Assembly (NCBI GenBank): GCA_905480225.1
Contig: CAJQPO010000007.1
Span: forward strand, 1 to 64,000
DNA length: 64,000 nt
Source of the DNA: an uncultured Flavobacteriales bacterium
GTDB lineage: Bacteria > Bacteroidota > Bacteroidia > Flavobacteriales_D > Parvicellaceae
Direction of reading: 5' to 3'
Shown here: positions 27,395 to 36,849 of the stretch, one piece after another
Layout: each line of letters starts with the position of its first letter
Position numbering within the stretch: position 1 is the first letter of the stretch
Made by a program: the position numbers and the translations under genes
Notes under the pieces: generated by a model
The model's input: only the letters and a program-made list of their open reading frames with translations
The model's database searches: none
Told to the model about the DNA's origin: nothing

Positions 27395-28759
27395 ATGTCT
27401 AAAGCCGTTAAAATTCGTAGAGGCTTAAACATCGCATTGCAAGGTAAGGCGGACAAAGTCCATGCCAATGCAAACGAGGCGAAGCAATATGCAATAAAAC
27501 CGACTGATTTTCATGGGTTAATGCCAAAACTTGTGGGTAAAGAAGGGCACAAATTGAAAGCTGGATCGGTGTTATTCTACGACAAATACAACGAAAGTAT
27601 TAAATATGCGTCGCCCGTTAGTGGTGAAATATCTGAAATTCGTAGAGGAGAAAAACGAAAAATATTGGAGGTAATCATTACCCCAGACGGAAAAGATTCT
27701 TTCGAAAAGCATGATGTTGCGGATCCAAACGACTTAAGTAGGGAAGAGATTCTTGAAAAAATGTTAGCTTCTGGATTGTGGCCATTTATTAAAATGAGGC
27801 CAGTCGATATTGTTGCTAATCCTACCGACACTCCTAAAATGATTGTTGTTTCCGCATTTGATTCGCATCCTTTGGCTCCAGACTATAATTTCTTATTGAA
27901 GGACGATCAAGAAGCATTTCAAACAGGAATTAATGCACTAAATAAGCTTACGGAAGGTTCTGTTCACCTCAACATTCGAGGTGAGAAAAAACAGAGCTCG
28001 ATTTTTGAACAATGTGAAAATGTTCAAATCAATCTTTTTGGAGGGGTGCACCCTTGTGGAAATGTAGGTGTTCAAATTCATCATATTGACCCGATTAACA
28101 AAGGAGAAGTAGTTTGGACAGTTAATCCTGCTGACGTAGCCGTAATCGGTAAATTTTTCATGTCTGGTAGGTTTGATACAGAGCGTGTTGTGGCCTTAAC
28201 CGGTTCGAAAGTAAATGAGCCTCGTTATCTCAAAACAAAAATTGGTGCGTCCATAGATAGTTTGGTCAAGAATAATATTGACGCGGAGAATGTTCGTATT
28301 ATCTCGGGTAACGTATTAACTGGAGACAAGACTGATGACAAAGGGTTTATAGGGTATTATCATCATCAAATCACGGTGGTGCCAGAAGGAGATCACCACA
28401 AGTTTTTCTTGACCGATGGATGGTTGAGTCTAGGGTTTAATCGATTTTCAATGTCCACGTCATACCCAACCATGCTCAATGCACCAAGTAAGAGATGGGA
28501 ATTAGATACCAATCTGAATGGTGAAGAAAGAGCATTTGTTGTATCAGAACAATACGAAAAAGTTTTTCCATTTGATATTTATCCCGTTTTTCTCATAAAA
28601 TCAATCTTAACGAATGATATTGATGGAATGGAAAAATTAGGAATTTACGAAGTAGCACCAGAGGATTTTGCGCTTTGCGAATTCGTTTGTACGTCTAAAA
28701 TCAATTCTCAAAAAATAATTCGAGACGGTTTAGATATTATTAAAGAGGAGTGTTTATAA
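27395..28759 (+). CDS. nqrA: Na+-translocating NADH:quinone reductase subunit A
   Basis: 454 residues. NqrA is the peripheral cytoplasmic subunit; it has an N-terminal barrel-sandwich region like RnfC (KIRRGLNIALQGKAD, then a GHKLKAGSVLFYDK segment near 51-64) and a Rossmann-like middle part (HPLAPDYNFLLK). It contains no covalent cofactor and sits over the quinone site. First of six nqr genes in the usual order A-B-C-D-E-F with 1-18 base gaps, so it defines the operon start; the operon promoter is probably in 27266-27394, but I see no exact TAnnTTTG there. Confidence 0.95.
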   Translation: MSKAVKIRRGLNIALQGKADKVHANANEAKQYAIKPTDFHGLMPKLVGKEGHKLKAGSVLFYDKYNESIKYASPVSGEISEIRRGEKRKILEVIITPDGKDSFEKHDVADPNDLSREEILEKMLASGLWPFIKMRPVDIVANPTDTPKMIVVSAFDSHPLAPDYNFLLKDDQEAFQTGINALNKLTEGSVHLNIRGEKKQSSIFEQCENVQINLFGGVHPCGNVGVQIHHIDPINKGEVVWTVNPADVAVIGKFFMSGRFDTERVVALTGSKVNEPRYLKTKIGASIDSLVKNNIDAENVRIISGNVLTGDKTDDKGFIGYYHHQITVVPEGDHHKFFLTDGWLSLGFNRFSMSTSYPTMLNAPSKRWELDTNLNGEERAFVVSEQYEKVFPFDIYPVFLIKSILTNDIDGMEKLGIYEVAPEDFALCEFVCTSKINSQKIIRDGLDIIKEECL

Positions 28760-28768
28760 AAGCAAGAA

Positions 28769-30049
28769 ATGAAATTTTTAAGAAACATATTTGATAACGC
28801 TCATCATAAGCTAGAATCAAAAGAAAAAATCAAAAAGTTTTGGCCTTTGATAGATGCTTTTGATACGCTTATGTTTACCCCGAAAGAGGTAACGAAGTCT
28901 GGTTCGCACATTCGTGATGCGATCGATTTGAAACGAACGATGATGCTAGTAATCACTGCCATGGTTCCGTGTTTATTATTTGGCATTTATAATGCAGGAT
29001 ACCAAAGTTTACGCCTTACCGAGGCGGGTTGGGACGCAGGAGTTTTGGATTGTTTCATGGCTGGTTTGCCTAAAATATTACTGCTGATTATCGTTTCTTA
29101 CGCTACTGGTTTAGGTGTAGAATTTATTTTTGCGATACGGAATCAACATTCTGTAGCAGAAGGATTTTTGGTTTCTGGAATGTTGATTCCATTGATTATG
29201 CCAATAGATGTGCCACTTTGGATGGTAGTAGCCGCCACGGCTTTTGCCGTTTTAATTGGCAAAGAAGTCTTTGGAGGTACAGGGATGAACATTTTGAATG
29301 TCGCACTAACCGCGAGGGCATTCTTATTCTTTGCGTATCCCACAAAAATGTCTGGTGACAAGGTGTGGATTTCTGATTATGAGTTAATGAAAGAAAAGAG
29401 CCTGGCTGTTAAAGAAAATGTGGCTAATGGAACGGAAATTCCTGAACACCTTGCAAATGTACCAGAGCTCGTTGATGGCATGTCTGGGGCAACTGCGATG
29501 GGGGAACTTGCCAGTACTTTTGACGCAACAGCAGCACATTCAGAAGCAGTTACCTCGATGTTCGCTTCGGGAGGACAATTTGATTTTATGAATTCATTTT
29601 TAGGTTTAATACCTGGTTCAGTTGGAGAGACTTCAGCACTAGCTTGTTTGTTGGGTGCTGGAATGTTGTTAGCAACGGGTATTGCTAGTTGGAAGGTAAT
29701 TGGATCTTTTTTCGTTGGTGGTTTATTCATGACCTCTGTTCTTTTCGCAATTGGAGGAAACCCTTATTTTGATTTAAATCCAATTCATCAATTGATGTTG
29801 GGTGGCTTCATGTTTGGAATGGTATTTATGGCCACAGATCCGGTAACTGCTTGCCAAACGGGTACAGGAAAATTCATTTATGGATTTTTGGGTGGTTCGC
29901 TCGGAATTTTGATCCGGATTTTAAACCCTGCTTACCCTGAAGGAATTATGTTAGCAATTTTAATTGCGAATGTGTGTGCTCCATTAATAGATCACATGGT
30001 GATCCAATCGAATATTAAACGAAGACTAAGTCGACTAAAAACCGCATAA
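28769..30049 (+). CDS. nqrB: Na+-translocating NADH:quinone reductase subunit B
   Basis: 426 residues, multi-pass membrane subunit of the RnfD/NqrB family. The flavinylation motif DGMSGAT places the covalent FMN on Thr242. An N-terminal cytoplasmic tail (1-55, KFLRNIFDNAHHKLESKEKI) precedes about ten membrane helices; the VGETSALACLLGAG and MATDPVTACQTGTG segments are conserved in the family. NqrB carries FMN and riboflavin and forms much of the sodium path. Flavin is attached by ApbE, whose gene ends this operon. Confidence 0.95.
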   Translation: MKFLRNIFDNAHHKLESKEKIKKFWPLIDAFDTLMFTPKEVTKSGSHIRDAIDLKRTMMLVITAMVPCLLFGIYNAGYQSLRLTEAGWDAGVLDCFMAGLPKILLLIIVSYATGLGVEFIFAIRNQHSVAEGFLVSGMLIPLIMPIDVPLWMVVAATAFAVLIGKEVFGGTGMNILNVALTARAFLFFAYPTKMSGDKVWISDYELMKEKSLAVKENVANGTEIPEHLANVPELVDGMSGATAMGELASTFDATAAHSEAVTSMFASGGQFDFMNSFLGLIPGSVGETSALACLLGAGMLLATGIASWKVIGSFFVGGLFMTSVLFAIGGNPYFDLNPIHQLMLGGFMFGMVFMATDPVTACQTGTGKFIYGFLGGSLGILIRILNPAYPEGIMLAILIANVCAPLIDHMVIQSNIKRRLSRLKTA

Positions 30050-30050
30050 A

Positions 30051-30884
30051 ATGGCTATTAATAAAGAAAGTAATTCGTATACAATAATGTTCGCCGTTGC
30101 TATGGTTGTTGTTGTTGGTGGTCTTTTGGCGTTTACCTACGAATCCTTTAAGGACGTCATAAAAAGTAACCAAGAAAACGAAAAGAAGCAAAACATCTTA
30201 CAAGCAATCGGAATCGCTGAGACAGGTGGTAAAGATTTTGATAGGACTGCGGCACAGGAAGTCTTCTATAAATATGTTACCAGAAGAATAACACTTTCTT
30301 ATGAAGGGCAAATATTAAGTGACTTACCTGCCGATAGTATCATTAATGCGTCAAATAAGCTAGATGCCTTTAACATAGACTTAAGAAAAGAGTATAAGCT
30401 ATACGGTAAGAAGGTAATCAAGAATAACAAGGGAAGCAAAGAGAAATTGGCTGCAGGATTGGCCGCAGAAGATAGAATTCATTATCCTTTGTTTGTTTGT
30501 GAAAAAGGAGATTCAACTTTTTATGTAGTTTCTGCTGTTGGAACGGGCCTTTGGGATGATGTTTGGGGTTATATTGGAATTAATTCAAACTGTCAAACCA
30601 TTAGTGGTTCTGTTTTCGATCATAAAGCGGAAACGCCCGGATTAGGTTCGAAGGTTACTGAAGATTGGTTTCAAAAACAATTTGTTGGTAAACGAATCAT
30701 GGCTGAAGATGGCGAAACCAGGTTGAAGCTAGAGGTTCGAAAACCAGGAAATGAATTGAATATCCATCAGGTAGATGGAATTAGTGGCGCAACATTTACA
30801 GGTGCAGGTGTTGCAGAAATGTTGGAAAGATCATTTGTGGTCTACCAAGATTTTTTTGATAATAATCCAGAATTCAAAAAATAA
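30051..30884 (+). CDS. nqrC: Na+-translocating NADH:quinone reductase subunit C
   Basis: 277 residues: one N-terminal membrane helix (about 10-29) and a periplasmic FMN-binding domain. The motif DGISGAT places the covalent FMN on Thr248. The family's GLWDDVWGYIGI and ETPGLGSKV segments are present. NqrC shuttles electrons on the periplasmic side. The start codon follows the nqrB stop by one base, so translation is probably coupled. Confidence 0.95.
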   Translation: MAINKESNSYTIMFAVAMVVVVGGLLAFTYESFKDVIKSNQENEKKQNILQAIGIAETGGKDFDRTAAQEVFYKYVTRRITLSYEGQILSDLPADSIINASNKLDAFNIDLRKEYKLYGKKVIKNNKGSKEKLAAGLAAEDRIHYPLFVCEKGDSTFYVVSAVGTGLWDDVWGYIGINSNCQTISGSVFDHKAETPGLGSKVTEDWFQKQFVGKRIMAEDGETRLKLEVRKPGNELNIHQVDGISGATFTGAGVAEMLERSFVVYQDFFDNNPEFKK

Positions 30885-30889
30885 GAGGC

Positions 30890-31549
30890 ATGGCAGAGGT
30901 AAAAGAAAAAGAGCCGTTATTCTCTAAGAAGAACAAAAGGTTAATTACGGATCCGTTGAATGACAATAATCCGGTAACAATACAAGTACTAGGTATTTGT
31001 TCGGCATTAGCGGTCACGGTTCAATTGGATAATGCAATAGTGATGTCTATTGCGGTAATGGCTGTATTGGTTATCGGTAATGTGGTAGTTTCTTTGCTAA
31101 GAAGTTTTATCCCTCCAAGGATTCGAATCATCGTTCAGCTTGTTATCGTTGCATCACTGGTTATCATTGTTGATATTGTGTTAAAAGCATTTGTTTACGA
31201 TGTTTCTAAGCAACTTTCAGTCTTTGTCGGACTCATCATTACCAATTGTATCATTATGGGTCGTTTGGAGGCTTTCGCAATGGGTAATAAACCATGGGCA
31301 TCTGCTTTGGACGGAGTTGGTAACGGATTAGGTTATGGGTTTGTTTTGATTGTTGTTGCGATTTGTAAAGAATTATTTGGTTCGGGATCGTTAACTATCC
31401 CTGGATTTGATAAGTTTCAATTTATTGCTGAAGGCTCTGGTTACCTGCATAACGGTTTAATGCTGTTACCACCTTCTTCGTTGGTTTTAGTAGCAGTCTA
31501 TATTTGGATTCAAAAAACCAGAAACAAGAAATTAATAGAAGAACATTAA
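30890..31549 (+). CDS. nqrD: Na+-translocating NADH:quinone reductase subunit D
   Basis: 219 residues, six-helix membrane protein of the NqrD/RnfE family. Two conserved Cys are visible, Cys37 in VLGICSALAV and Cys120 in ITNCIIMGR; with two from NqrE they hold the intramembrane iron centre. The N-terminal ~30 residues are hydrophilic and cytoplasmic. It lies 5 bases after nqrC. Confidence 0.95.
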   Translation: MAEVKEKEPLFSKKNKRLITDPLNDNNPVTIQVLGICSALAVTVQLDNAIVMSIAVMAVLVIGNVVVSLLRSFIPPRIRIIVQLVIVASLVIIVDIVLKAFVYDVSKQLSVFVGLIITNCIIMGRLEAFAMGNKPWASALDGVGNGLGYGFVLIVVAICKELFGSGSLTIPGFDKFQFIAEGSGYLHNGLMLLPPSSLVLVAVYIWIQKTRNKKLIEEH

Positions 31550-31567: not shown

Positions 31568-32182
31568 ATGGAATACTTTAAATTATTCATACGTGCTGCC
31601 TTCGTAGACAACATGATCTTTGCATTCTTTTTTGGAATGTGTTCATATTTGGCGGTGTCAAAAACGGTAAAAACGGCAGTTGGTTTAGGAATGGCTGTAA
31701 TTTTTGTTCTAACAGTAACGGTTCCTGTCAACTGGTTATTAGATACTTATGTATTGCAAGAAGGAGCTTTGTCTTGGTTAGGACCTGAATATGCCAGCTA
31801 TGATCTCAGCTTTTTGAGTTTTATCATGTTTATTGCAGTTATTGCGTCAATTGTTCAATTAGTCGAAATGATTGTTGAGAAGTTCTCACCAGCTCTTTAT
31901 GGTGCCTTGGGAATCTTCTTGCCATTAATCGCAGTAAACTGTGCCATTTTAGGGGGTGCATTGTTTATGCAACAAAAACAATTTGGAGATATTGCTGAAG
32001 CTACGACGTACGGATTGGGTTCTGGATTTGGATGGTTCATAGCGGTAGTTTTAATTGCGGCAATAAGAGAGAAAATTCGCTATTCTCATATACCTGCCCC
32101 ACTTAGAGGAGTTGGTATGGCTTTCTTAATTACGGGCTTAATGGGATTGGCATTTTTAGGATTTTTAGGTTTTAACATTTAA
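31568..32182 (+). CDS. nqrE: Na+-translocating NADH:quinone reductase subunit E
   Basis: 204 residues, a membrane paralogue of NqrD with inverted topology. Cys25 (FGMCSYLAV) and Cys124 (AVNCAILGG) complete the four-cysteine iron site with NqrD. An AAIREKIRYSHIP cytoplasmic loop near the C-terminus is typical. The iron at this site needs a maturation factor (NqrM in Vibrio); a candidate lies at 34668-34871. Confidence 0.95.
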   Translation: MEYFKLFIRAAFVDNMIFAFFFGMCSYLAVSKTVKTAVGLGMAVIFVLTVTVPVNWLLDTYVLQEGALSWLGPEYASYDLSFLSFIMFIAVIASIVQLVEMIVEKFSPALYGALGIFLPLIAVNCAILGGALFMQQKQFGDIAEATTYGLGSGFGWFIAVVLIAAIREKIRYSHIPAPLRGVGMAFLITGLMGLAFLGFLGFNI

Positions 32183-32195
32183 TAGTGATTTAAGA

Positions 32196-33491
32196 ATGAC
32201 TGGAGTAGTAATAACATCAATTATAGTTTTCTTGGCTGTAGTGCTTTCACTAACGGCCTTGCTCTTATTTGCAAAGGCAAAATTGGTTTCTTCTGGAAAA
32301 ATTAAGATTACCATTAATGGAGAAAGAGAACTAGAAGTAGAAGGTGGAAACACTTTATTAAGTACGTTAGGTACCGCAGGTATTTTTTTACCATCCGCTT
32401 GTGGTGGTGGTGGAACTTGTGTGCAATGTATTTGTCAAGTTCATACTGGCGGTGGATCAATATTACCTACAGAAGTTCCGCATTTTTCTCGAAAGGAAAT
32501 AGCTTCTAACCACAGACTTGGTTGTCAGGTCAAGGTTAAGGAAGATATGGAGATTGAAGTAGAGGAGGAAGTTCTAGGAATTAAGGAGTGGAAAGCAAAA
32601 GTGGTTTCTAATTATAATGTGGCAACGTTCATCAAAGAATTTATAGTTGAAATTCCTGAGGATATGGACTACAAAGCTGGTGGATATATCCAGATCAATA
32701 TTCCAAAATGCACCATTAATTATTCAGATATGGACGTTGAAGCACATCCACAGGATCATCCTGGTGAGCCGGAGAAATTCAAGGCTGATTGGGATAAATT
32801 TGGTTTATGGCCATTGGTGATGAAAAATGATGAAGAAGTTGTTCGTGCTTATTCGATGGCATCTTATCCAGCTGAAGGTCGAAAAATCATGTTGAATGTT
32901 AGGGTTGCTACACCACCTTGGGACCGCAAGAACAACGATTGGATGAAAGTCAATCCAGGCATAGCATCCTCTTATATTTTTAATTGTAAAGCAGGTGATG
33001 AGGTAACCATCTCGGGACCTTATGGCGAATTTTTCATCAACGAATCTGACTCAGAAATGCTTTACGTTGGTGGAGGTGCAGGAATGGCGCCTATGCGTTC
33101 ACATTTATACGAGTTATTTAAAACATTAAAAACAGGTCGGAAAGTAACCTATTGGTATGGCGGTCGCTCACGTGCGGAATTGTTCTATATACATTACTTT
33201 AGAGATCTTGAAAAAGAGTTTTCCAATTTTAAATTTTATTTGGTGTTGTCAGAGCCATTGGAATCTGATAATTGGGTTGAAAAGAAAGACATTGATGATC
33301 CAAATGGTGATGGATTTCTAGGATTTGTACATAATGCTGTAATTGATCAGTATTTAAGTAAACACGATGATCCTGAGGATATTGAGCTTTACTTCTGTGG
33401 ACCTCCGCTAATGAATGTTGCCGTTCAGAAAATGGGTGAAGATTTCGGGATACCTGATGATAGTATAAGATTTGATGATTTTGGTGGTTAA
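32196..33491 (+). CDS. nqrF: Na+-translocating NADH:quinone reductase subunit F
   Basis: 431 residues, the electron-entry subunit. In order: one N-terminal membrane helix (about 5-25), a [2Fe-2S] ferredoxin domain (Cys69, Cys75, Cys78, Cys110), an FAD domain (RAYSMASYP) and an NADH domain (GGGAGMAPMRSHLYE; CGPPLMN near the end). It oxidises NADH and passes electrons through FAD and the iron-sulfur centre. Its last bases overlap the longest possible apbE reading frame, and a strong terminator follows 22 bases after its stop. Confidence 0.96.
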   Translation: MTGVVITSIIVFLAVVLSLTALLLFAKAKLVSSGKIKITINGERELEVEGGNTLLSTLGTAGIFLPSACGGGGTCVQCICQVHTGGGSILPTEVPHFSRKEIASNHRLGCQVKVKEDMEIEVEEEVLGIKEWKAKVVSNYNVATFIKEFIVEIPEDMDYKAGGYIQINIPKCTINYSDMDVEAHPQDHPGEPEKFKADWDKFGLWPLVMKNDEEVVRAYSMASYPAEGRKIMLNVRVATPPWDRKNNDWMKVNPGIASSYIFNCKAGDEVTISGPYGEFFINESDSEMLYVGGGAGMAPMRSHLYELFKTLKTGRKVTYWYGGRSRAELFYIHYFRDLEKEFSNFKFYLVLSEPLESDNWVEKKDIDDPNGDGFLGFVHNAVIDQYLSKHDDPEDIELYFCGPPLMNVAVQKMGEDFGIPDDSIRFDDFGG

Positions 33492-34641
33492 CACTTGTCA
33501 CAATAGTATTTTTAAAAAGTCCCGATTGATTGGGACTTTTTTGTTTTCGCTGCTTTTCTATTCCTGTACAGATAACACCAATACTAATGGACGTAAGTCA
33601 TTAGAAAAGGATGAATCGAGTAGGAAAAACAGTTCGGAAAATAATTTCTATACGATTGAAGGGTTTGCTCAAGGAACGACCTATCAAATAAAATATGAGG
33701 CTTCACACGATTTAAAAATCAAACGCGAAATTGATTCATTGCTACAAGATTTTGATTGGCACTTATCAACGTATTTGGATTCAAGTTTAATTTCTGATTT
33801 TAATAATGCAGATGTTCATTTCTATTGCCAAATTGTTTCCAGTATTATAGCCAATTGCTTTTTAGAATCTCGAAAAATTTATGAAGTTACTGATGGTGCT
33901 TTTAATCCAGCTGTCTACCCACTGGTTGATTTTTGGGGGTTTTATGACATGGCGAATAAAGAACACCAGCCAACTCGGGAGGAAATTGATTCAGTATTAA
34001 AATTCATTGTTTTTGATTCCACAGCTATTCAATTGGTTCAAAATAAATGGATAGATACGGATGAGCTAAGTGTCAACGAATTGTGTAAGGTTGATGCAAG
34101 ATTGAAGCTGGATTTCAATGCCATAGCGCAAGGTTTTTCAGTAGACTTAATTGGACTTTTCCTGAAATCTTGGGGTGTTGAAAATTACATGGTAGAGTTA
34201 GGTGGCGAGGTAAAATGTCGAGGAGTAAATGCATATGGTAATTTGTGGAAGATTGGTATTGATCGCCCATCTGATGGAGCAAGTGTGGCAAACAGAGTAC
34301 TTAATGCAGCTGTACTGGTAGATAATAAAGGTTTAGCAACATCGGGTAATTACAGAAAGTTTTATGAGCTGAATGGTATTAAATATGCGCATACGATCGA
34401 TCCTAGGACAGGGATGCCTGTTTCTCATTCCTTATTAAGCACTACGGTTGTTTCTGACAAAGCTTCTGTATCTGATGCTTATGCAACAGCATTTATGGTT
34501 TTAGGTGTAGAAGAGACTAAGCTATTTCTTGAAAAACATGAAGAATTGGACTTGGATGTCTATTTAATTTATGCCAATGCTAATGGAGAATTTATTACTT
34601 GGATGAACAGCGGTATGAAAGCAATTATAGAGGAATTTTAA
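33475..34641 (+). CDS. apbE: FAD:protein FMN transferase (flavin transferase ApbE), lipoprotein
   Basis: 388 residues from the ATG at 33475 (a TTG one codon earlier is also open); an internal TTG at 33526 would start closer to the signal peptide. A hydrophobic segment ends in LLFYSC, a lipobox, so the enzyme is probably anchored on the periplasmic side. Family motifs: GFAQGTTYQIKYEA (about 64-77), GGEVKCRG, and the metal-binding IDPRTGMPV near the C-terminus. ApbE moves FMN from FAD to Thr in SGAT motifs, as in the NqrB and NqrC genes upstream. The N-terminal codons contain the hairpin of an intrinsic terminator, so expression may be lower than nqr or come from another promoter. Confidence 0.92.
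   Translation: MILVVNTCHNSIFKKSRLIGTFLFSLLFYSCTDNTNTNGRKSLEKDESSRKNSSENNFYTIEGFAQGTTYQIKYEASHDLKIKREIDSLLQDFDWHLSTYLDSSLISDFNNADVHFYCQIVSSIIANCFLESRKIYEVTDGAFNPAVYPLVDFWGFYDMANKEHQPTREEIDSVLKFIVFDSTAIQLVQNKWIDTDELSVNELCKVDARLKLDFNAIAQGFSVDLIGLFLKSWGVENYMVELGGEVKCRGVNAYGNLWKIGIDRPSDGASVANRVLNAAVLVDNKGLATSGNYRKFYELNGIKYAHTIDPRTGMPVSHSLLSTTVVSDKASVSDAYATAFMVLGVEETKLFLEKHEELDLDVYLIYANANGEFITWMNSGMKAIIEEF
33514..33542 (+). terminator. Intrinsic terminator of the nqr operon, inside the 5' end of apbE
   Basis: AAAAAGTCCC (33514-33523) pairs with GGGACTTTTT (33532-33541) around an 8-base loop, and the descending arm doubles as the T run. This is the shape of a factor-independent terminator. It follows the nqrF stop by 22 bases but overlaps the region coding for the ApbE signal peptide. 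Confidence 0.75.
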
Positions 34642-34667: not shown

Positions 34668-34871
34668 TTAGGGTAGTGGTTGAATTTCACTTTTACATTT
34701 TTCGTCGGGTCGTGCCCCGCACACTCCACAAGAAGCACCGTCTTCTTGAAGCAAAGGATTGTTACTTGCGCATGTGCCTGCAAATTCCCCTCCTTTTTTT
34801 GCCCATATTTTAATTGCAATTCCTGCGACTGCAAGCCCCAAAAGGCCGATAGAAAGTAACGCTAACTTCAT
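34668..34871 (-). CDS. nqrM: NqrM-like (DUF539-like) four-cysteine membrane protein
   Basis: 67 residues: one N-terminal membrane helix (about 4-24), a basic stretch (KIWAKKGGEFAG), then four Cys in CASNNPLLQEDGASCGVCGARPDEKC (Cys34, Cys48, Cys51, Cys59). NqrM of Vibrio has the same outline, a membrane helix followed by a GSCGG/C-x-C-x-x-PC cluster, and is needed to insert iron between NqrD and NqrE; its gene often lies beside nqr and apbE. This protein lies directly beside apbE, on the opposite strand. Homology is judged by length, Cys pattern and place only; the Cys spacing differs from the Vibrio protein, so the name is provisional. Confidence 0.6.
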   Translation of the reverse strand: MKLALLSIGLLGLAVAGIAIKIWAKKGGEFAGTCASNNPLLQEDGASCGVCGARPDEKCKSEIQPLP

Positions 34872-34888: not shown

Positions 34889-35623
34889 TTATTGTGGAAT
34901 TAATGCTCCTGAACCAGTCATTGCAACATCGATAATTGTTGGATTACCAGAATAATACACATTACCTGATGACTCAATAACCCCATTAATTGAGTTTGTG
35001 GCATTCAATTTTAGCCATCCTGTTGAATTCCAATGAATAGCAGCCTTTGTTGAAATTAATTGCGATGCATCAACATCACCATGCCCAAAATAATAAAAGT
35101 AGCTATCTGCGCATGTACCAACTAATTTAATATTTGTGACTCCGACATTCACAATAAAGAAACTCGAATCACATTCAAGCGTTAAATCAATATTTCCGTT
35201 TGCACGATTCGCATCAACAATAATATTCTTCTTTATGGGTGTTTCATTTGTCAAGTTTCCGGATCCATAAAGTAAGATCTTATTAAGATTTATACTGTTT
35301 AGGTAAACTTTAGTTTTGTAATTAAGGTCTCGCAAGAATGAACATCTATTATCATCTCTTATAAATAGCGTGTCATTAGAAACTTCAGTCACAATAAAAC
35401 CCATGAGGTTTGCACCTGATTCTACAACTATCGAATTATCAGTGGTATCTGTTAGTATTAAGTCAATGTGATCATCTAGAACCACAAAGGAATAAGGGTT
35501 AAGCGACCTTGAATCAAAGGTGATATTTCCAATATTTTTGAAACACCTCCTATTTTCTACTTTCTTACATCCGGTCAATGAAAAGATAAATGAGATGACT
35601 ATTAAGAATTTACATCGATTCAT
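34889..35623 (-). CDS. GIN-domain (DUF2807-like) putative lipoprotein
   Basis: 244 residues from the ATG at 35621-35623; longer starts lack a signal peptide at the N-terminus. A hydrophobic segment ends in LTGC, a lipobox. The mature part shows the right-handed beta-helix-like pattern of DUF2807 (SFVVLDDHIDLILTDTTD; YGSGNLTNETP; GSGALIP at the C-terminus). These are exported putative auto-transporter adhesin-type domains of unknown role, common in Bacteroidota. The start overlaps the end of the PagL-like gene by 14 bases, so the two are co-transcribed. Confidence 0.7.
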   Translation of the reverse strand: MNRCKFLIVISFIFSLTGCKKVENRRCFKNIGNITFDSRSLNPYSFVVLDDHIDLILTDTTDNSIVVESGANLMGFIVTEVSNDTLFIRDDNRCSFLRDLNYKTKVYLNSINLNKILLYGSGNLTNETPIKKNIIVDANRANGNIDLTLECDSSFFIVNVGVTNIKLVGTCADSYFYYFGHGDVDASQLISTKAAIHWNSTGWLKLNATNSINGVIESSGNVYYSGNPTIIDVAMTGSGALIPQ

Positions 35624-36740
35624 CTTGCTTACTATTTTTGTCTTTTTTTGTGTTCTGAAAAAATCTATATCCAATGCCTAATTCCATATATTCAGCGATA
35701 CCGAAATGTGTTTTTATGCCTAATGAAGCAACGATACCAGTCTTTGCAAATCGCTTTCGGTAACCAATTTTTTGATACAATGGACCATTTTCTTTATACT
35801 TTGAGAATAGATAAACTCCTTGCTGTAGGAAGACTGAATTATCATTAAACTTTAATTCCAAGCCACCAAATCCACCAATTTGCAGACTCATTAAATTGGG
35901 GTTACTACCTGACTCTGTTGCTGCCAGCAAACTTGGATTGGCAAATGCATCTATGCCAGAACACCAAGCAAATTTTGGTGAAAACTGATGTAAATACTGA
36001 AAACCCAAAGAACCCACAAGGTATTTTTTAGGATGATGAAGGCTTACCTGCCGAGCACCACCAAATAGAAACACTTCGTGTGCTCTGATAAATAAGGATT
36101 CGTCATTCGTGTAATTAGTAGGATTACGTATTTCTAATTCTTCATTGGCAGGATTACCTATGGCAAATCCAAGGTATACCGTTGGAATGTTGATTCCTAA
36201 ATTAGGGGAATTATACGATGCATTGGAGAAATGAGTTATTGCTATTCCATATTTAATAAATTGCAATTTTATTGAGGCCTCTCCTTCAATTGCCACGTTA
36301 ATAAGGGAATTAATGTGGGTGCCAATTGTAATATTTTTGCTGTTTGTGACCTGATCAAAAGGTTTTTGAACATAGCCTATGCCTCCTCCAAATTTCAATC
36401 GTGGAGCAAATTTACCTGCACCTAGTTTAAATCGAATGTTCGGATAAAGTCCAAAACAGTGCCCAATTTGTTTTGGGTTCCCTGTGTTTAGGTATAAGAC
36501 TGAAAGACCATTAATCGGTTTAGTATAGTTAGTGCTTAGGTGAGAAACTCCAATGGGTTCCGATAAATAACTAAGTTCAAACGTTGAGGAATGGCCTTGT
36601 ATTAGATGCCTCATGCTTGATCTATGAGCAACTAAGAATCCAGAACCGTAAGTGGCTGCGATATATCGTCTAGCTCCCTGACCAAGTCCAGTTGTTACAG
36701 TTAGAACCGCAAGTACTGATATGACATATCGTTTCTTCAT
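35610..36740 (-). CDS. PagL-like acyloxyacyl hydrolase / lipid A deacylase family outer-membrane protein
   Basis: 376 residues from the ATG at 36738-36740 (a TTG upstream would add five residues before the signal peptide). A signal peptide is followed by an outer-membrane beta-barrel pattern. The opening YGSGFLVAHRSSMRHLIQGH is typical of the Bacteroidota acyloxyacyl hydrolase family, and THFSNASYNSPNLGIN carries the His/Ser-Asn motif of PagL active sites. PagL removes the 3-O acyl chain from lipid A; whether this long homologue does so is unproven. A second C-terminal barrel-like half makes it about twice the size of PagL. Confidence 0.7.
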   Translation of the reverse strand: MKKRYVISVLAVLTVTTGLGQGARRYIAATYGSGFLVAHRSSMRHLIQGHSSTFELSYLSEPIGVSHLSTNYTKPINGLSVLYLNTGNPKQIGHCFGLYPNIRFKLGAGKFAPRLKFGGGIGYVQKPFDQVTNSKNITIGTHINSLINVAIEGEASIKLQFIKYGIAITHFSNASYNSPNLGINIPTVYLGFAIGNPANEELEIRNPTNYTNDESLFIRAHEVFLFGGARQVSLHHPKKYLVGSLGFQYLHQFSPKFAWCSGIDAFANPSLLAATESGSNPNLMSLQIGGFGGLELKFNDNSVFLQQGVYLFSKYKENGPLYQKIGYRKRFAKTGIVASLGIKTHFGIAEYMELGIGYRFFQNTKKDKNSKQDESM

Positions 36741-36849
36741 TTTGTTACATTGCAATTTACTGCAATTCTCAGAATCTATTATCCTCTAAATTCGATTTGG
36801 AAATTCTACAATTATTCTCATTGATTTTGCGTTTCTGCACTAACATACT

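Follow-up and report, generated by a model that had tools for sequence, protein, structure and literature searches.

We consider it probable, at odds of about four in five, that the 67-residue membrane protein encoded next to the nqr-apbE operon of this uncultured Flavobacteriales bacterium is an assembly factor dedicated to NQR: a small inner-membrane protein that would serve the iron site of NqrD and NqrE, presumably by delivery, and that would correspond in Bacteroidota to NqrM, of which it is probably a remote homologue. NqrM (PF04400, formerly DUF539) is the maturation factor of the Na+-NQR of Vibrio, Klebsiella and other Pseudomonadota. A preliminary description of the same DNA had already proposed the protein as the Bacteroidota counterpart of NqrM. 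Its co-occurrence with NQR, the placement of its gene, the lack of a canonical NqrM and an NqrM-like layout largely support this proposal. NQR is a main respiratory pump in many Bacteroidota, and the curated model finds no NqrM there; nor was a Bacteroidota NqrM described in the titles and abstract openings of the literature that we searched on NqrM and NQR maturation. With a candidate that matches in presence, place and layout, the question of what builds the NqrD/NqrE site of Bacteroidota is now testable, and the 67-aa gene would probably be needed to make a Bacteroidota NQR in a foreign host.

The gene, its locus and its relatives

The window, by which we mean the whole stretch of 64,000 nucleotides analysed, carries an nqrABCDEF-apbE operon (Table 1). 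Each of nqrA to nqrF scored over a curated NCBIfam cut-off, and apbE, which overlaps the end of nqrF, closes the operon. The 67-aa gene is convergent to apbE, with 26 nt between the two stops (apbE stop at 34641, end of the 67-aa ORF at 34668). Length, single membrane helix, the four Cys at residues 34, 48, 51 and 59 and the convergent position just outside the nqr operon had all been given in the preliminary description and were confirmed. It had further held that NqrD and NqrE keep four Cys, and these are indeed present: Cys 37 and 120 of NqrD and Cys 25 and 125 of NqrE, which the NQR literature gives as the four ligands of the intramembrane iron.

Table 1. Genes of the nqr locus in the window, and the CCGGGHC proteins of three other loci (last section)
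Feature	Position	Strand	Remarks
nqrA	27395..28759	+	NCBIfam
nqrB	28769..30049	+	NCBIfam
nqrC	30051..30884	+	NCBIfam TIGR01938
nqrD	30890..31549	+	NCBIfam; Cys 37 and 120 (also 159)
nqrE	31568..32182	+	NCBIfam; Cys 25 and 125
nqrF	32196..33491	+	NCBIfam TIGR01941, 553 bits
apbE, FAD:protein FMN transferase	33472..34641	+	PF02424, 6.8e-70, passes; overlaps end of nqrF
67-aa single-helix protein gene	34668..34871	-	ATG start; stop codon included; Cys 34/48/51/59
DUF2807 (head GIN domain) gene	34889..35674	-	same strand as 67-aa gene, 17 nt upstream of it
PagL-like (lipid A 3-O-deacylase family) gene	35610..36755	-	upstream of DUF2807 gene
f17 CCGGGHC protein	L124:10831-11055		
f17 CCGGGHC protein	L125:3360-3575		
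f17 CCGGGHC protein	L135:3537-3740		

The protein has one hydrophobic stretch, which is N-terminal (best Kyte-Doolittle window 2.24). AlphaFold placed a single helix at residues 2-26 (block pLDDT 92/89) and left the tail without secondary structure (pLDDT 46-66), at a mean pLDDT of 65.6. ORFs in other frames and on both strands overlap the gene. The window ORF is beyond chance, because the same protein was found in 35 other aligned loci at 56-83% identity to it. The 67-aa gene may possibly be co-transcribed with the DUF2807 gene. In another locus (L004:4152-5962), too, the PagL-like/DUF2807 pair precedes the family gene and shares its strand, and three more loci (L002, L017 and L025), compared by gene size, have genes of similar size at this place.

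A tblastn search of one genome collection returned 317 confirmed relatives, 80 of which were used as a locus set, mostly named as Flavobacteriales or below. Residues G17, I18, K21, K26, G28, F30, G32, T33, C34, P39, C48, C51, G52 and P55 were invariant in all 36 aligned members, and F30, G32, C34, P39, C48, C51 and G52 still were so in a wider set of 32 members. At least four Cys occurred in each of the 53 distinct members of sets A1 and A3, the spacing of the fourth being variable. None of the Pfam and NCBIfam models scored over its cut-off on any family member scanned, and in these scans the zinc-ribbon and similar matches of the window protein all stayed sub-threshold. A profile search of the PDB yielded chance-level matches alone (zinc-finger, rubredoxin, ATM), and a tblastn search of plasmids with the window protein gave no match. 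Eight genomes (G533, G537, G538, G564, G566, G610, G614 and G638) carry two copies of the family gene, in one case three, close together on one contig.

Co-occurrence with NQR and placement of the gene

The family co-occurs near-strictly with NQR, and not with RNF. We compared the two in three genome draws, which share genomes and are thus not independent. Among the 296 genomes of the class draw, searched with a wider family profile at E<=0.01, 118 had both the family and full-length NqrF, two the family only, two NqrF only and 174 neither; at a stricter E<=1e-10 these figures became 106, 0, 14 and 176. In the phylum draw, for which at least 90% completeness was asked and the first, narrower family profile was used, the family was found in 40 of 247 genomes and full-length NqrF over cut-off in 50, all 40 being within the 50, so that 40 genomes had both, none the family only, ten NqrF only and 197 neither. 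A 51st NqrF match, in G167, was excluded because it covers model residues 129-403 only; there (L134, G167:C8:34625-35455) a 779-codon frame has an NqrF-like C-terminal part (339.9 bits), and no other nqr gene lies in 10 kb. The order of G238, with 149 genomes, gave 114 with both, two with the family only, five with NqrF only and 28 with neither. The tie to nqr that the preliminary description had drawn withstood these counts, which put a family gene without NqrF in 2 of 296, 0 of 247 and 2 of 149 genomes. The Fisher p for co-occurrence was 3.8e-78, not corrected for phylogeny. Contrasts within smaller groups agreed with this: among the 14 genomes of g8, NqrF occurred only in G084 and G154 and the family only in the same two, and among the eight genomes of f2, G398 had NqrF and the family and the other seven neither. 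The pattern tracks gains and losses within such groups. NqrM itself reportedly occurs only with NQR, according to the 2016 work of Kostyrko.

Of the family-only genomes G383, G441, G539 and G563, the first two were looked at individually. G383, which is 99% complete on one contig and has no NqrF at E<=1e-60, holds a broken remnant of the gene (L193:3009-3107) that stops after residue 33, with a 485-aa ORF on one side and an OmpH gene on the other. The remnant is syntenic with the intact family gene of the congener G404, a genome that has NqrF; there the neighbours are a 485-aa M20-peptidase gene and a gene of about 220 aa. G441 is a 92% complete MAG, where the family copy adjoins apbE. G306 and G354, which have NqrF and lack the family, are incomplete MAGs (92% and 95%) with no copy in the stretches around nqrF; further NqrF-only genomes (G506, G593, G595, G641 and G642) were taken from counts alone. 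As to the ten NqrF-only genomes of the phylum draw, two (f12) were reached by the wider profile and the other eight are those of f17, in whose eight NqrF genomes no family member was found.

These data bear on a reading in which the protein would be a small envelope protein of general zinc-ribbon or redox type, located near nqr by chance or through shared regulation. Weak matches to the zinc-ribbon family PF25144, below cut-off in 21 of 32 members, would be in line with it, as would the PagL-DUF2807 neighbours common to the window and L004. The Fisher p, albeit uncorrected for phylogeny, the within-genus contrasts and the broken remnant where NqrF is missing nevertheless speak against it, and we hold this reading, already disfavoured, to be highly improbable.

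A partner of ApbE that aids the attachment of FMN, and is not a factor for the iron site, might be suspected from loci of several genomes (L022, L024, L025, L028, L187-L190 and L194) where the family gene stands beside apbE with no nqr gene in the stretch examined. To our knowledge, however, the conserved Cys would have no place in known ApbE chemistry. RnfC, moreover, was found in 5 of the 40 family genomes (Fisher p=1), which indicates that the family does not follow RNF, and the family was found in none of 20 genomes with RnfC and without NqrF, although RNF too depends on ApbE, as stated in an excerpt of PMC12174285. Such a partner of ApbE thus appears very unlikely.

Linkage of the gene to nqr is common but not general, and it is lineage dependent. 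In the class draw, 33 of 120 family genes were located at most 10 kb from nqrF on the same contig, all 33 downstream of it, 31 convergent and two on the same strand. Within the same distance were 25 of 116 genes in the order draw, 20 downstream on the opposite strand, one downstream on the same strand and four upstream. That linkage is not general is seen from the 80-locus tblastn set, where the flanks examined held nqrF in five cases and apbE in twelve. In Algibacter luteus (L045), the family gene follows ECF-sigma and anti-sigma genes, away from nqr. In Bacteroides-type loci (L180, L181, L183, L185, L186 and L192) it was observed away from nqr as well, flanked on one side by an ORF of about 485 aa and on the other by a gene of about 200 aa, the latter being OmpH-like in the three scanned.

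Near-strict co-occurrence would fit equally well with a permanent accessory subunit of the Bacteroidota NQR, which would stay bound and stabilise NqrD/NqrE and would not be a maturation factor; many small accessory subunits likewise consist of a single helix and a short tail. Unlike nqrA-F, however, the gene is placed outside the nqr operon, convergent to it or elsewhere, and the layout of the protein resembles NqrM. We therefore regard a permanent subunit as unlikely and favour the assembly factor.

Relation to NqrM

Neither the window protein, at E<=1, nor any of the 32 members scanned had a match to the curated NqrM family PF04400 (cut-off 22 bits), while the same kind of scan recovered four of four known NqrM at 26-80 bits. 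The preliminary description had left it to be checked whether a separate canonical NqrM is present. PF04400 had no match in the own genome and none over cut-off in the 247 phylum-draw genomes, and the proposal stands; as the controls of the own-genome search were silent too, its result is read as absence only together with the Pseudomonadota control, where PF04400 was found in six of six NQR-bearing records.

For a more sensitive comparison, eleven NqrM sequences were aligned, eight of them annotated as nqrM and those of Proteus, Aeromonas and Neisseria obtained by tblastn with Providencia NqrM. The family profile A3 scored all 11 Pseudomonadota NqrM at 10.2-25.3 bits and all 235 unrelated decoys with an N-terminal helix at 8.9 bits or less, the decoys being mechanical ORFs from the fetched loci and not all real genes. 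The reverse profile, built on NqrM, was weaker: the family median was 5.3 bits, a value that six of 235 decoys equalled or exceeded. When profile A5 was used, a single decoy came up to the median score of NqrM, and eight came up to its lowest score. When the NqrM tails alone were shuffled, the score fell in most cases: 58 of 2200 shuffles reached the real score, Aeromonas being the worst case with 37 of 200. In Providencia NqrM, as in the window protein, the Cys of the G[ST]C motif is residue 34, and the G[ST] before it is in register too. This register was attained in 17 of 20000 permutations at fixed offset and in 110 of 20000 when the best of seven offsets was taken. BLASTP of the window protein against Ruegeria NqrM gave an E of 2e-4, in a single comparison.

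The profile-profile comparison suggested in the preliminary description had a mixed outcome: hhalign of the family against NqrM returned 87% and then 94% probability, but the similarity lies mostly in the helix. With the post-helix columns shuffled (random seeds not reproducible), the mean was 35.7 against a real value of 40.6, which 10 of 150 shuffles reached, and on the tail alone hhalign did no better than shuffles (46 of 150). Since the helix carries most of the signal, we dropped these percentages as proof of homology, and the case rests on the decoy test, the Cys34 register and the genomic context. The decoys and the tail shuffles favour a homology that extends past the helix, hhalign on the tail alone does not, and the likeness lies mostly in the helix and the GTC/GSC motif. 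We regard the family as a probable remote homologue of NqrM outside PF04400.

Both proteins are small, with one N-terminal helix, a G[ST]C motif whose Cys is residue 33 or 34 and more Cys in the tail, and both have a gene beside apbE or nqr and are tied to NQR. The family differs in having ASNNP and not GGL after the first Cys, in a gene that is usually convergent to the nqr operon or away from it, and in the His that replaces the first Cys in its Bacteroides-type branch. The Cys spacing, C-x13-C-x2-C-x7-C, departs from that of NqrM as the preliminary description had remarked. We do not see an objection in this, because curated Rhodobacterales NqrM also has CxxC and the spacing is thus variable among NqrM as well. 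The Rhodobacterales sequences (L143:1723-1959, L148, L150, L151 and L152) combine CxxC with a distant last Cys, and the three of these five that were scanned scored 26-32 bits with PF04400. L148 was the best-scoring NqrM with the Bacteroidota profile, at 25.3 bits.

Proposed function, the His branch and other small proteins

In Vibrio, insertion of the intramembrane cluster seems to require NqrM, which was predicted to deliver iron to NqrD/NqrE, according to excerpts of PMC12174285 and PMC6209661. By analogy, the single helix would anchor the 67-aa protein in the inner membrane, with the Cys-bearing tail probably facing the cytoplasm, as suggested by lysines 21, 25 and 26 at and after the end of the helix. 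The tail carries a GTC motif eight residues past the helix and a CxxC. It would bind iron or an Fe-S unit, to be passed on to the intramembrane cluster site common to NqrD and NqrE, or may keep this site open during assembly. We infer metal binding, membrane orientation and the delivery step from the likeness to NqrM.

Cys33 of V. harveyi NqrM is said to be essential and the other Cys helpful, again in the 2016 work of Kostyrko. In Bacteroides-type genomes, which were reached with the wider profile, the window segment GGEFAGTCASNN reads, for example, NGRFPNTHVSGN: His stands at the place of Cys34, Cys48 is kept, and CxxC and the fourth Cys are gone. The label Bacteroides-type was assigned from an nqr neighbourhood shared with Bacteroides finegoldii. 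Residue 34 was His in 29 and Cys in one (L226) of the best 30 loci of 116 genomes, a count biased to the His type because these loci are the best-scoring ones. The context of two His-type loci indicates that this branch is the same gene: in L212, which stems from G559, it lies convergent to nqrF at a distance of 2.1 kb, and in L194 it adjoins apbE. In f96 and f105, Cys34 and the Cys pair were kept. Since the Bacteroides-type branch has lost three of its four Cys, an iron carrier with four Cys is less convincing as a mechanism for the whole family. The branch indicates that some members do without the full four-Cys site, and either His/Cys ligation or a chaperone role may apply. The natural Cys-to-His change, at the position reported as essential in V. 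harveyi, offers a natural experiment on the working of the factor. In Parabacteroides, two small ORFs follow nqrF; with at most one Cys each, they were rejected as candidates.

A review, in an excerpt, places the origin of NQR in Bacteroidota. If this is so, the 67-aa family may be the original NqrM, and we propose that the Pseudomonadota form is derived. In a tentative scenario, which we think somewhat less probable than even, NqrM would have arisen with NQR in Bacteroidota, the 67-aa family being older; the Bacteroides-type branch would then have exchanged the first, essential Cys for His and lost two further Cys, so that a His/Cys pair remained. On this view the factor would either carry metal and tolerate an exchange of ligands, or be an assembly chaperone that can dispense with its four-Cys site in anaerobes.

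Other small proteins share single traits with the family. The FeoB-associated Cys-rich family PF12669 and FixS (PF03597) are small membrane proteins that weakly match 2 and 5 of 32 members; the best E-values were all 0.05 or worse, however, and their known genomic contexts differ from that of the 67-aa family. RseC, a partner of the RNF-like RSX, resembles it in a Cys-rich cytoplasmic motif that serves a related complex (excerpt of PMC11729352), but has two helices and a four-Cys motif in its N-terminal domain, and the 67-aa family does not follow RNF.

In f17, nqrABCDEF-apbE is followed directly, in all three loci read (three of eight; Table 1), by the gene of a small protein that has a single hydrophobic stretch and the motif CCGGGHC and matches no Pfam family over cut-off. 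It shares with the 67-aa protein the single N-terminal hydrophobic stretch, the Cys-rich tail and the position downstream of nqr-apbE, and differs in the CCGGGHC motif and in a gene that lies on the nqr strand. hhalign gave it 34% to the family and 88% to NqrM, values in which the helix likely weighs heavily. This protein may be a third kind of NQR helper.
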